A program made the translations under genes and the position numbers. A stretch of DNA of 35,513 nucleotides from Candidatus Halarchaeoplasma halalkaliphilum. Its GTDB lineage: Archaea > Thermoplasmatota > Thermoplasmata > Halarchaeoplasmatales > Halarchaeoplasmataceae. Each line of letters starts with the position of its first letter. Position 1 is the first letter of the stretch. Positions 6,499-34,198 of this stretch are shown here, piece by piece. The stretch spans positions 1 to 35,513 of the forward strand of contig SLLU01000069.1 of the NCBI GenBank assembly GCA_007133925.1, written 5' to 3'. Below the pieces are notes generated by a model. The model had not been told where the DNA came from and ran no database searches. It worked only from the letters and a program-made list of their open reading frames with translations.

Positions 6499-7392
6499 CT
6501 AGTCCTTTCCATGAAGGGCGTTATGTATCTTCTTGGTAAATGCCGGGCCGACGCCCTCCACCTTCAACAGATCTTCCTCGGTAGCGTTCTTCAGCTGCTC
6601 GAGAGTTCTGTAACCCCCTCCATAGAGTTTTTCCGCCATCGTGGGACCGACACCGTCTATGGTCTGGAATTCCTGTAGTATATCCGGTTTGGACAGGACC
6701 TTCTCGGGTTCGGGCATTGTTTCTTCTTCCTCTACCACGGTGACCTCTTCCTTCACCTCTTCTTCCGTTAATATCAGGTCTTCCACCATTTCACTTTCAG
6801 GTATGGAAAGTATCTTGGATTTGCATATCTCCACAGTACGGAGTGGATATATCTCCTTGCAATCTTTCTTGATCTGGCTAGCAAGGGATCCGAACAGCAT
6901 CTTTTGAACCAGTTGAGACAGTGTGGATTTCGAAGCGGTCTCTGTTATGATCTCCATCTGCTTGTTACGTAGAGACCTCTTTATGGAGGTGTTGATCCTT
7001 TTGTTGGTAACCGAAAGTACCTTTATTCTAATCTTATAACCCTCTTTTGTGGAAACATCGAAGGCTGGATCTATCTTTGACCTTCTTCGACGGGTCAGAC
7101 GTCTAACAAAATCAGATGTCATATCATGACCGTAGAACTGGGTTCTGCATTCGCCACCCCTGATGGCATTGACCCTCAACTTGACCTTTACATGTACTTT
7201 GGAAAAATCTCCGGCCAGTTCTTGAAGACTGATCTCAGATATCCTACCAAGCAATAATTCCGGATCCGCTGAAGGTGTTTCACCCACCTTTGCACCCTGG
7301 AACATGTCCGGTGCTACTATGGTGTACCAACTCTTTGATTTCCATTTGTCCTTTACCCGTCTGGATGCTAGTCTGGACTTTCGCCTTGCCAT
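6499..7392 (-). CDS. rps3ae: 30S ribosomal protein S3Ae (eS1) with C-terminal helix-hairpin-helix extension
   Basis: N-terminal basic MARRKSRLASRRVKDKWKSKSWYTIVAPDMF... typical of S3Ae; C-terminus FQTIDGVGPTMAEKLYGGGYRTLEQLKNATEEDLLKVEGVGPAFTKKIHNAL is a tandem HhH. Confidence 0.92.
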   Translation of the reverse strand: MARRKSRLASRRVKDKWKSKSWYTIVAPDMFQGAKVGETPSADPELLLGRISEISLQELAGDFSKVHVKVKLRVNAIRGGECRTQFYGHDMTSDFVRRLTRRRRSKIDPAFDVSTKEGYKIRIKVLSVTNKRINTSIKRSLRNKQMEIITETASKSTLSQLVQKMLFGSLASQIKKDCKEIYPLRTVEICKSKILSIPESEMVEDLILTEEEVKEEVTVVEEEETMPEPEKVLSKPDILQEFQTIDGVGPTMAEKLYGGGYRTLEQLKNATEEDLLKVEGVGPAFTKKIHNALHGKD

Positions 7393-7479: not shown

Positions 7480-8994
7480 TTAAAGTAATTTTAAACCTTT
7501 CGGTGGATCTCCATGGAATTCCCTGAACCTTTCCGGCCAATCACCCGGTTCAAGACCTTTTTGGGCAAGGAAGGCTGAAGCCCACCGTTCAAGTCCGATA
7601 CCGGAGCAGCCGGAGTACAACTCTTTGGCCTGTGATTTTATGTTGAATACCTTGGTGTATTTTCCGAATATGCTGAGATTCTGAAATTCCAACCACTCAC
7701 TTTCCTTCCTGTCCCCCCGGTAGGGAAGATAGGCCTCGAAATCTATGGTCCCTTCATTTTCGTCCGCACCCTTGTCGGTACCCCCGGACTGCTGAAGGTA
7801 GAATGGTTCCACCTGAGCCATCCTCCATTCCAGTTCTAAAACCTCTTCGAACACATAAGTGTACCTTTGGATCAGTGACTCCCGTAAATCGGTAAGCTGT
7901 TCCAGTGTGCCGATATAGACCGGCTCGATACGATGGAACTCATCCACACGCTCTATCCCGTGCCTGCCCCCGGATTCGTACCTAGCGCTGGGTACGGTAC
8001 GGTCGTACACGAGTAAGGGAAGGCTTTCGTCCGCGATGGTTTGATTTCTAAGAGACCAATATATGACAGGACATTGAGCATAACATATGCCGCTTCGAGG
8101 TTCGGATATCAACTCTTTGAGGAGTGCTACGGGGATCTCCCTGGCGATCTTAACATGATCCACGAACCCCTCCCATTCCGAGGGTGTCCTTGTCAGGGGC
8201 TCCGAAACATAATAAATCTCGTTCGGGACCCCTTCCATGTGACCAGTATCGATCCACACGTCGAAGGGGACCATCATGGATTGAATGACCTCCTGAAATC
8301 CCAAGGGTTGGAGTACCTCTTCGATGGCTATCCTTTCCATTGTATTGAGTATCTTCGCCGCTTGGGGTTTGTAGAACCATTTACCCTTTGTGGGGCCCTT
8401 CAGAATCCACCCTCTTTTTTCCATCTCCACCGTGGGATCCTTGTCCCATACCATCCTTTTTTCTTGGGAACTCCAGATCAGGTTCCACTGTTCAGCTTTA
8501 CCTTTGTAATGTTGAGCATTCACTTTTTCCTGTATGCGCTTTATGATCCGGTCCACGTAGTTATTTTCCATCTGCTCCTGGGTGAGTTTTGATGCGTTGA
8601 AGCGACATAACCGTTCCTCGAACTCGATGTCCTCTGTGAAGGGGACCGTGACCGGTTCAATTGGCTTGAACTCACACTGGAGTTCCACTATATACGATAT
8701 GATATCTATTCCCCTGATGCCTATGTGGTATTCCTTTCCCAAGTTTCGGGACAAATTCTTTTTCAATCGGAATACCGCATCATGGGCCCTCACGTAGCGG
8801 TCGGAGACCACCTTCAGTTCAAGAGCATGGGGATGGAATATCATATCCTTAACGGAAGCACCACCCTCTAGGTCCTTTGGGACCCCTCTTTTGAGAAGGT
8901 CCTCTTCAGCCGCCTTGATCAATTTCGTTATGTAGTCCTGTTTGTCATCTACGTCCCCGCTGAATTTAAAGAGGCATACCAATTCAAATTTCAT
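7480..8994 (-). CDS. serS: Type-2 (archaeal/methanogen-type) serine--tRNA ligase
   Basis: 504 aa class II aaRS-like; regions CYAQCPVIYWSLRNQTI, ARYESGGRHGIERVDEFHRIEPVYIGT and YSGCSGIGLERWASAFLAQKG match the atypical SerRS family, not bacterial-type SerRS. Confidence 0.85.
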   Translation of the reverse strand: MKFELVCLFKFSGDVDDKQDYITKLIKAAEEDLLKRGVPKDLEGGASVKDMIFHPHALELKVVSDRYVRAHDAVFRLKKNLSRNLGKEYHIGIRGIDIISYIVELQCEFKPIEPVTVPFTEDIEFEERLCRFNASKLTQEQMENNYVDRIIKRIQEKVNAQHYKGKAEQWNLIWSSQEKRMVWDKDPTVEMEKRGWILKGPTKGKWFYKPQAAKILNTMERIAIEEVLQPLGFQEVIQSMMVPFDVWIDTGHMEGVPNEIYYVSEPLTRTPSEWEGFVDHVKIAREIPVALLKELISEPRSGICYAQCPVIYWSLRNQTIADESLPLLVYDRTVPSARYESGGRHGIERVDEFHRIEPVYIGTLEQLTDLRESLIQRYTYVFEEVLELEWRMAQVEPFYLQQSGGTDKGADENEGTIDFEAYLPYRGDRKESEWLEFQNLSIFGKYTKVFNIKSQAKELYSGCSGIGLERWASAFLAQKGLEPGDWPERFREFHGDPPKGLKLL

Positions 8995-10454: not shown

Positions 10455-11426
10455 TCATTCCAGTATATCTACGAGCTGGTTGAAAACCGCCTCGGCGGTT
10501 TGTTGTATCACCTGCTGGCGATCGCCCTTGAAATGATGTATTTCGACAGATGTATTTTGTTCCATTGCCATCCCTGTGTACACCGTCCCCACCTTCTTTA
10601 CTTTTGTAGCGCCCCCAGGTCCGGCGATACCCGTGGTACTTATACCTATGTCAACCCCTATCCGTTCTCTAACGTTCTCGGCCATACACCTGGCAACGGG
10701 CTCACTCACTGCACCGTGTTCTCTTATCAAATTGGCATCCACTTTCAACAGGTCTGTTTTTGACTGATCACTGTAAGAGATCACGCCGGCCATAAAATAC
10801 ATGGATGCGCCTGGGATGCTTGTCAGATACTGGGCGATGGCACCTCCTGTGCATGACTCTGCCGTAGCCACGGTCAATCCTTTTTTTGTCAGCAAGTGTG
10901 CAACTCTTTTCACCGGATTTTCAATACACTCCGTAAGAGGCCCACATCGAAGGGTGATATCCAACCCCTCTATATAATCTGCCACCGATGGGGGTACGAG
11001 GTGCTTCCACTCAACCCCATCATACATTTTTTCCCGTACAAGGGTTCCCTTCCAAATATCTCGATTGAACGCCTCTATGTCCACCAGTTCCACATCAATG
11101 TTACCCATGAGTTTTTTTACAACGGAAGATCGGGCATAGACCCTGTCGAATGACGGGAGCATGCTGTGGATGTAATGGGGCCATTCAGGATAACAGTGGA
11201 TATCGGGTATGGGATATATCTCATAATCCGATATGCCTTCGGCCTCCATGACCTTCCGTATCATGGTTATCCTCTCTCCACCGGAAAAGGGGTTGTCCGG
11301 AATCCGTTGGATCTGGGCACTGCCCACACCGATCATCAACACATCGCATTCCCTTTCCATCTGTTTTACGATGGCAAAATGTCCGTTATGGAAGGGCTGG
11401 AACCTGCCTATGAATAGACCCCTCAT
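10455..11426 (-). CDS. Fusion: nicotinamide-nucleotide adenylyltransferase (NadM-like) + CinA C-terminal / PncC NMN amidohydrolase domain
   Basis: N-term MRGLFIGRFQPFHNGHFAIVKQME... (archaeal NMNAT); C-term GLTVATAESCTGGAIAQYLTSIPGAS...GISTTGIAGPGGATKVKKVGTVYTG (CinA-C/PncC), one uninterrupted ORF. Confidence 0.9.
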   Translation of the reverse strand: MRGLFIGRFQPFHNGHFAIVKQMERECDVLMIGVGSAQIQRIPDNPFSGGERITMIRKVMEAEGISDYEIYPIPDIHCYPEWPHYIHSMLPSFDRVYARSSVVKKLMGNIDVELVDIEAFNRDIWKGTLVREKMYDGVEWKHLVPPSVADYIEGLDITLRCGPLTECIENPVKRVAHLLTKKGLTVATAESCTGGAIAQYLTSIPGASMYFMAGVISYSDQSKTDLLKVDANLIREHGAVSEPVARCMAENVRERIGVDIGISTTGIAGPGGATKVKKVGTVYTGMAMEQNTSVEIHHFKGDRQQVIQQTAEAVFNQLVDILE

Positions 11427-11489: not shown

Positions 11490-11564
11490 CGGGCGTGAGG
11501 GGATTCGAACCCCCGGTTTACAGCTTAGGAGGCTGTCGCCTTATCCAGACTAGGCCACACGCCC
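11490..11564 (-). tRNA. tRNA-Arg(CCT)
   Basis: RC: GGGCGTG TG GCCT AGTCTGGAT AAGGCG ACAGC CTCCTAA GCTGT AAACC GGGGG TTCGAAT CCCCT CACGCCC G; acceptor, anticodon and T stems pair. Confidence 0.93.
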
Positions 11565-11566
11565 AT

Positions 11567-11696
11567 GGTGACTCGGAAGCGGGTTTTCAGTATGACATTG
11601 AAGGCCAGCGCCATATCCAGACTATCTTCGAGAGCGGTGTTGCTGCCTCGAATGGTTCAGGGAATGTTTTTATTCCCTATGAGGCCACACGCCCAT
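11567..11696 (-). pseudogene. Interrupted, degenerate partial copy of the tRNA-Arg(CCT) gene
   Basis: + strand aggccacacgcccat (11682-11696) is identical to 11552-11566 in the tRNA; cgccatatccagacta (11609-11624) matches cgccttatccagacta (11537-11552) at 15/16. Same order and strand, separated by 57 bp. Confidence 0.7.
11625..11681. repeat. 57-bp insert with two inverted repeats splitting the duplicated tRNA-Arg 5' half
   Basis: TTCGAG (11627-11632) / CTCGAA (11647-11652) and AGGGAAT (11659-11665) / ATTCCCT (11672-11678) with a 6-nt loop. Confidence 0.6.
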
Positions 11697-33866: not shown

Positions 33867-34198
33867 GAACAGGTGACCGTAGTAAGCCCCTTTCTGTTTC
33901 AAGACGGCATTCATCTATGCGTCCTACCCGCCGGTCCCGGAATGATCATCCCGGCATCTTTGGACTTGCTCCGGTGGGGAGTCGCCGTTTCATCGATCCC
34001 TCCGGTTCTCAGCTCTGCGGGTTAACTCACCTTGCCTTGCGGCAGGCTTCGCACACTTCACAGCTCACCGGAGGACGTGTCGTTTCTGCGCCCTTGCCGA
34101 GACTCTCGCCTCACCGCCTTGCGACGGTCCACCTTTTCCGCGGAGAGGGGACTTTCCTCAGGGTCGAACCCCGTCGGCCGTCCTCGGTCTCCTGTTCG
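33867..34198 (-). ncRNA. rnpB: RNase P RNA (archaeal)
   Basis: RC contains GAGGAAAGTCC (34149-34159), GGAGCAAGTCCAAAG and the 3' ACAGAAAGGGGCTTAC. P1-like helix GAACAGGAGACC (5') / GGTCACCTGTTC (3') sets the ends; TATA-like ttatttata about 25 nt upstream. Confidence 0.93.

Follow-up and report, generated by a model that had tools for sequence, protein, structure and literature searches.

Hairpin-bearing units at the ends of archaeal tRNA genes, a possible family of mini-elements that copy into tRNA loops

In a 35,513-nt stretch of DNA from Candidatus Halarchaeoplasma halalkaliphilum (hereafter, the window), a partial copy of a tRNA-Arg 5′ half, interrupted by a structured insert of 57 nt, lies upstream of an intact tRNA-Arg(CCT). 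Relatives also carry the insert in conserved form, and many other tRNA genes show this kind of arrangement; both facts had been missed in an earlier sequence-only reading of this DNA. Roughly a quarter of the tRNA genes in three archaeal families bear hairpin units of ~100 bp at either end. We observed the common architecture of these units, their match to the target tRNA, breakpoints at loop edges and conserved hairpins, as well as empty and filled sites, tandem arrays, near-identical copies and, in the window's family, a motif of fixed polarity. We hold, with about even confidence, that the unit in the window belongs to a family of small hairpin elements, free of ORFs, that insert copies of themselves into tRNA genes without destroying the tRNA.

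Results

A displaced tRNA-Arg 5′ copy in the window carries a two-hairpin insert

On the minus strand of the window, the tRNA genes follow in the order tRNA-Val (11935-11841, with the Val identity taken from orthologues), tRNA-Met(CAT) (11793-11717) and tRNA-Arg(CCT) (11565-11490), and the unit sits between tRNA-Arg(CCT) and tRNA-Met(CAT), the next tRNA upstream. The intact tRNA-Arg(CCT) was called by both ARAGORN and Rfam (RF00005, 67.9 bits), with one limit at 11564 or 11565 depending on the caller. The displaced copy is on the same strand and begins with a first segment, ATGGGCGTGTGGCCT (11696-11682), that consists of two leader nucleotides and tRNA nucleotides 1-13 and is identical at 15 of 15 positions to the start of tRNA-Arg(CCT) together with its own two leader nucleotides. 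The 57-nt insert (11681-11625) follows at the edge of the D-loop, and the second segment (11624-11600) then resumes at tRNA nucleotide 14 and runs to approximately nucleotide 36, from the D-loop to the anticodon. The beginning of the second segment, TAGTCTGGATATGGCG (11624-11609), matches tRNA-Arg(CCT) at 15 of 16 positions. These coordinates and identities, and the 57-bp spacer between two tRNA-Arg pieces in their proper order, had been reported in the sequence-only reading and were re-derived here. Its two perfect inverted repeats were likewise found in the insert: hairpin 1 (11678-11659) is AGGGAAT-AAAAAC-ATTCCCT, with a 6-nt loop, and hairpin 2 (11652-11627) is TTCGAG...CTCGAA. Since matches of at least 11 nt upstream of swapped tRNAs occur at only ~1-3%, two in-order tRNA matches of such length within 130 nt are not due to chance.

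The sequence past the second piece had been described as only faintly tRNA-like. Instead, the similarity continues to 11600: AGTCTGGATATGGCGCTGGCCTTC (11600-11623; G000:C45:11600-11623) is identical at 23 of 24 positions to the tRNA-Arg(TCT) of a relative, compared with 19 of 24 (manual count) for the adjoining tRNA-Arg(CCT). The second segment is a chimera, with a CCT-like start and a closer resemblance to tRNA-Arg(TCT) over all 24 nt. A 34-nt tail (11599-11566) connects the copy to the intact tRNA and contains an AAAACC stretch, similar to that in the tails of units at tRNA-Arg(TCT). An Rfam scan of the window at gathering scores returned only tRNAs and RNase P RNA, with no rtT RNA, and the scan over the unit itself gave only a chance match to chrB-a (E 1.9).

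The hairpins are conserved, and hairpin 2 shows compensatory change

Among 41 genomes searched, matches to the arrangement at 73-76% identity turned up in other genera, where they precede tRNA-Arg(CCT) or tRNA-Arg(TCT). When we compared eleven units preceding these genes, including that of the window, the two-hairpin fold was common to all eleven. The tRNA-derived segments track the local tRNA, with GGGCGTG and AGTCTGG at CCT loci and mostly GGGCGCG and AGCCTGG at TCT loci. Hairpin 2, which consists of 10 paired positions and one constant mismatch, has undergone two-sided compensatory change at 6 of the 10 pairs, in a total of 18 cells. In 2000 column shuffles, pairing as good as that observed was never obtained, although the relatedness of the sequences makes the shuffle test lenient. 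As only 1 of 106 pairs is G-U, the pattern could reflect homogenization of the arms in the DNA as well as selection on an RNA.

These comparisons bear on several earlier interpretations. The proposal of a decayed tandem duplicate with an element in the D-arm describes the anatomy fairly well, except that the insert is not decayed: its hairpins are conserved and compensated across genera, and the arrangement recurs. The insert is missing in some sister species but is structured wherever it is present, contrary to the alternative that it would prove absent or random in relatives. Conservation and compensation rule out a lone decayed pseudogene, and recurrence of the feature in many independent assemblies rules out misassembly. 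We rejected a D-loop intron, as had been suggested, and a split or permuted tRNA, because the copy ends at the anticodon and lacks a 3′ half, with an intact tRNA alongside; by inspection, no bulge-helix-bulge was visible in the folds at the insert borders.

Similar units occur at both ends of many tRNA genes

We masked the tRNA genes and looked, within 400-500 bp of each one, for exact copies of at least 11 nt of that tRNA. In three Thermoplasmata families (f1, f4 and f11; nine genomes), ~84 of 289 tRNAs have an upstream (5′) unit and ~66 of 289 have a downstream (3′) unit, totals that are approximate because the MAGs are fragmentary and the sequence sets overlap. In the window genome, units were found upstream of 3 and downstream of 9 of the 31 tRNAs. 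Counts for other families were 1/48 upstream and 0/48 downstream (f6, f13, f17 and f19), 3/28 and 0/28 (f12) and 0/16 and 1/16 (f5). When each tRNA was instead compared with the flanks of other tRNAs in five genomes, upstream matches of at least 11 nt were obtained at 0.8-3%.

Within f4, a similar two-hairpin module is embedded in 5′ copies of Arg, Leu, Gln, Val, Thr, Ala, Ser, Ile, Asp and Met tRNAs, and each copy matches the adjoining tRNA. Mirror units lie downstream, where the 3′ part of the tRNA is copied with hairpins in the T-loop; one at tRNA-Tyr (L232), in the genome to which the window belongs, reads ...CCCCGGTTCA-(two hairpins)-AATCCGGGAGTCGGGAC. Units are ORF-less and ~50-140 bp long, with an average of ~130 nt for those elsewhere than the window. 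They occur singly or in tandem, and their number differs between sister species.

A search of genome contigs with the unit pattern matched Thermoplasmata MAGs and scattered bacterial records, of which the archaeal matches were inspected. Some isolate names among the related MAGs suggest salt or soda-lake sediments. Separately, genome G057 contains a unit-like double hairpin (GGAACTCC..GGAGTTC, CGCAAAGGCGTTACTTTG) at L115:493-514, L118:1501-1522 and L122:1-17. This double hairpin is located between inverted repeats, which in L115 are GAGCCATGGTGC and GCACCATGGCTC, outside any tRNA copy and with no Rfam match, and it may represent a unit in another RNA gene.

Breakpoints, junctions and a polar motif follow common rules

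In standard tRNA numbering, breakpoints of the first segment of 5′ copies cluster at nucleotides 10-14 and 21-22, the edges of the D-loop, and many second segments end at nucleotides 35-41, in the anticodon. The starts of 3′ copies cluster at nucleotides 54-64, in the T-loop. Reading outward from the tRNA, 86 of 142 junctions with a tRNA copy have the end of a perfect hairpin no more than 6 nt away, compared with 5% in shuffles. Families f1 and f4 give this signal strongly, and f11 only weakly (3/20). For 5′ units of f4, the most common junction end is GTG (19/49). In the window's family, the motif TTRGAA...TTCYGA is present in outward orientation in 8 of 26 units on the 5′ side and 12 of 24 on the 3′ side, whereas none of the 50 has it inward; as the motif was first noticed in the very units counted, an independent test is needed. 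This polarity is the best evidence for one element of fixed polarity at both tRNA ends.

The mismatches in the stems also differ between strands. In the discovery set (83 units), the sense strand of 5′ units has no G-T mismatches and 15 A-C mismatches, and 3′ units lean in the opposite direction (5 G-T and 3 A-C), which places wobble mostly on the outward-reading strand. Counted for the folded strand, wobbles in this set number 20 outward and 3 inward. A prediction of this bias, fixed beforehand, was then compared with held-out units, which gave 13 outward and 6 inward (one-sided p ~0.08), a result that goes in the predicted direction and is not significant alone.

Could the units instead be maintained as RNA? 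A transcribed unit might fold as a tRNA-half-like RNA and function in tRNA processing, decoying or regulation. In the window, it would probably be part of a tRNA-Met-to-tRNA-Arg transcript, and elsewhere it would be a leader, a trailer or a separate RNA. A structured leader that competes for the 3′ strand, as in the sequence-only reading, is likewise conceivable. Selection on an RNA would be consistent with the strong compensation in hairpin 2, next to tRNA segments that hardly differ from the neighboring tRNA, and with the presence of units at tRNA-Arg genes in all five f4 genomes sampled. In addition, a promoter scan of copies and tRNAs detected TATA-like boxes before 11 of 25 copies in f4, and the short gap between tRNA-Met and tRNA-Arg in sister species of the window's family suggests cotranscription. 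However, the TATA-like signals are inconsistent (3 of 16 copies in f1), orthologous tRNAs of sister species lack units, and units vary in number and are common to different tRNA types. Moreover, the rarity of G-U pairs and the location of most 5′-unit wobbles on the antisense strand are not what an RNA would lead one to expect. We regard a maintained RNA as doubtful, although it is the likeliest of the alternatives.

Empty and filled sites and near-identical units suggest insertion and copying between loci

The gap between tRNA-Met and tRNA-Arg is 151 nt in the window and ~25 nt, with no unit, in two genomes of the same genus (G002 and G003). At this gap, G001 contains an insertion of ~80 bp with unchanged flanks on both sides. 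The tRNA-Arg(TCT) locus is empty in the window genome and G002 and filled in G003. The displaced copy occupies the spot where the ancestral tRNA began.

Near-identical units were also found at different loci of one genome. An identical 3′ unit is present at three tRNA-Ala loci of G041, where the outer flanks soon diverge, and two tRNA-Ser loci of the same genome differ by one exact whole-unit indel. In G010, two tRNA-Leu genes have a 5′ unit in common and diverged DNA upstream. Such pairs could have arisen by transposition or gene conversion. With respect to tandem arrays, a tRNA-Ser 3′ unit of 80 bp is repeated in the window's own genome (L223), and an additional, degenerate unit is present in tandem arrangement upstream of tRNA-Arg(TCT) in G012 (L032).

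Some units contain a segment of their own tRNA in inverted orientation (19 of 83 and 15 of 67 units above the 95% swap level, where 4 and 3 were expected). These segments are unexplained by a pure landing model, and such units could have arisen through templated rearrangement on the spot instead of the landing of an element. One version is that slippage or recombination duplicates tRNA ends in place and template switching at hairpins inverts pieces of them, such that the units would be neutral by-products whose similarity is kept by gene conversion. The tandem arrays also point in this direction, as does leader sequence that is partly common to the regions preceding the copy and the tRNA. Nevertheless, local duplication does not predict one oriented motif at both the 5′ and the 3′ side of tRNAs that are unrelated to each other (20 versus 0), nor does it predict a preferred junction end, a two-hairpin grammar that holds across tRNA types or compensated stems, and we consider it unlikely.

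Discussion

Our preferred reading is that short, ORF-less hairpin elements (~50-140 bp) have spread among the tRNA genes of certain Thermoplasmata. A unit would join a tRNA gene at the D-loop edge on the 5′ side or the T-loop edge on the 3′ side, in an orientation that is constant relative to the tRNA end, and the old tRNA terminus would stay behind as a displaced fragment bearing the hairpins. Since a complete tRNA remains beside the displaced fragment, we propose that the host is unharmed. In the window, a relative of the units found at tRNA-Arg(TCT) genes sits at tRNA-Arg(CCT). We infer that the moving or copied form is a folded single strand, handled by a recombinase that the cell supplies; alternatively, tRNA genes could exchange units by homologous recombination or gene conversion. 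A more specific form of this proposal, which we put forward only tentatively, is that the units are a class of mobile DNA, namely ORF-less hairpin cassettes that enter the D- or T-loop as a folded single strand, carry a tRNA terminus that restores the gene and are possibly driven by a XerA-like enzyme. Such a system would be integron-like, with host tRNA genes as att sites.

How do the units compare with known elements? The double-hairpin elements of fungal mtDNA are short, ORF-less, palindromic mini-elements of mitochondria. The units have the properties of palindromic mini-elements in that they are short and ORF-less, have conserved hairpins, are sporadic among relatives and are multicopy per genome. 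They resemble yeast GC clusters, which are also short, ORF-less and sporadic, with one or two hairpins, shuffled modules and constrained structure (PMC4478555). However, GC clusters and double-hairpin elements are mainly intergenic, whereas the units described here join tRNA genes at the edges of loops, with a constant orientation, and keep a partial copy of the target next to an intact tRNA. By analogy, the units may work like palindromic mini-elements (PMC4478555) that also leave a displaced fragment in the manner of tRNA integration (PMC4383910, PMC9897764).

A related possibility is that the units are shrunken integrative elements, in which remnants of plasmids or viruses persist at tRNA-half att sites after near-total deletion. 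A displaced tRNA fragment together with an intact tRNA is the classical footprint of such integration (PMC4383910, PMC9897764). For pTN3-like elements, attB is the 5′ half of a tRNA, which their integrases use, and archaeal cleavage has been proposed to occur at the borders of tRNA loops; the units resemble these elements in the intact and displaced partial tRNA, the 5′ half and the loop-border breakpoints (PMC8371274). Of the att-site remnant proposed in the sequence-only reading, the displaced fragment and the loop-edge breakpoints fit. What does not fit is that no integrase-bearing element lies between copy and gene, where the window has 57 nt and a short tail, and that the arrangement recurs in tandem and at both ends of many tRNAs. 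The archaeal displaced-fragment cases cited here contain ~9-23 kb of inserted DNA (PMC9897764). The units, in contrast, measure 50-140 bp time after time, have conserved hairpins and encode neither an integrase nor any other gene. Three unit patterns had no match in IMG/VR viral contigs, and no parent element was found in these contigs or in the surveyed tRNA flanks. Shrinkage from larger elements therefore strikes us as quite improbable.

Other small repeats show more limited parallels. Rickettsia palindromic elements and REP/RAYT sequences are small, palindromic, non-autonomous repeats inside or beside genes; these do not copy tRNA ends, and several of the unit-rich genomes have no Y1 transposase. 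In one E. coli operon, the tyrT repeats (rtT RNA) are tandem repeats that each include the 3′ end of the neighboring tRNA. Those repeats are longer, and the units described here also include 5′ units and inserted double hairpins and have no Rfam match. The hallmarks of integron attC cassettes are an R-box core (GTTRRRY/RYYYAAC) and an integron integrase. The units resemble attC sites in their imperfect hairpins by the recombination point, possible ORF-less cassettes, tandem arrays and strand-specific folding, but differ in that they target tRNA loops and that neither an integron integrase nor an attC core has been established for them.

If a cell-supplied recombinase moves the units, which enzyme might it be? 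One lead is a small tyrosine recombinase of 183-200 amino acids that aligned solely to the C-terminal catalytic part of the archaeal XerA model. An example (L305:1450-2010; G000:C102:3153-3701), at 186-200 amino acids, is conserved across its family. The gene is present in most f1, f11, f12 and f5 genomes, and f4 has a more distant form. It was not found in the unit-rich genome G018 and is present in G019, which has few units (1/16). Judging from sequence, the small XerA-type recombinase is a candidate driver. We rejected Y1 transposase for this role, as it is patchy and missing from several unit-rich genomes.

We found no published description of such tRNA-end hairpin units in the open-licence literature that we searched. 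Large mobile elements favor tRNA genes as docking sites. Should the units be mobile, few tRNA-targeting elements would be smaller, and sparing of the host gene would be built in; should they be RNAs, a large class of tRNA-half-like RNAs would have gone unnoticed. On either reading, the units could mislead tRNA annotation and could feed tRNA gene evolution by supplying fragments, introns and isoacceptor changes.

Other genes in the window

Several other genes in the window merit mention. Directly 3′ of tRNA-Arg, on the minus strand, is a nicotinamide-nucleotide adenylyltransferase fused to a CinA/PncC amidohydrolase domain (10455-11426). The minus strand also encodes a 504-amino acid serine-tRNA ligase (7480-8994) whose best NCBIfam matches, PRK00960 and serS_MJ, are below the curated cut-offs; with matches at this level, the protein may be the rare methanogen-type enzyme, which would be unusual in this lineage. 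Ribosomal protein S3Ae (6499-7392, minus strand) has an additional C-terminal helix-hairpin-helix domain. The archaeal RNase P RNA detected by Rfam (221 bits) is at 33871-34193, also on the minus strand.
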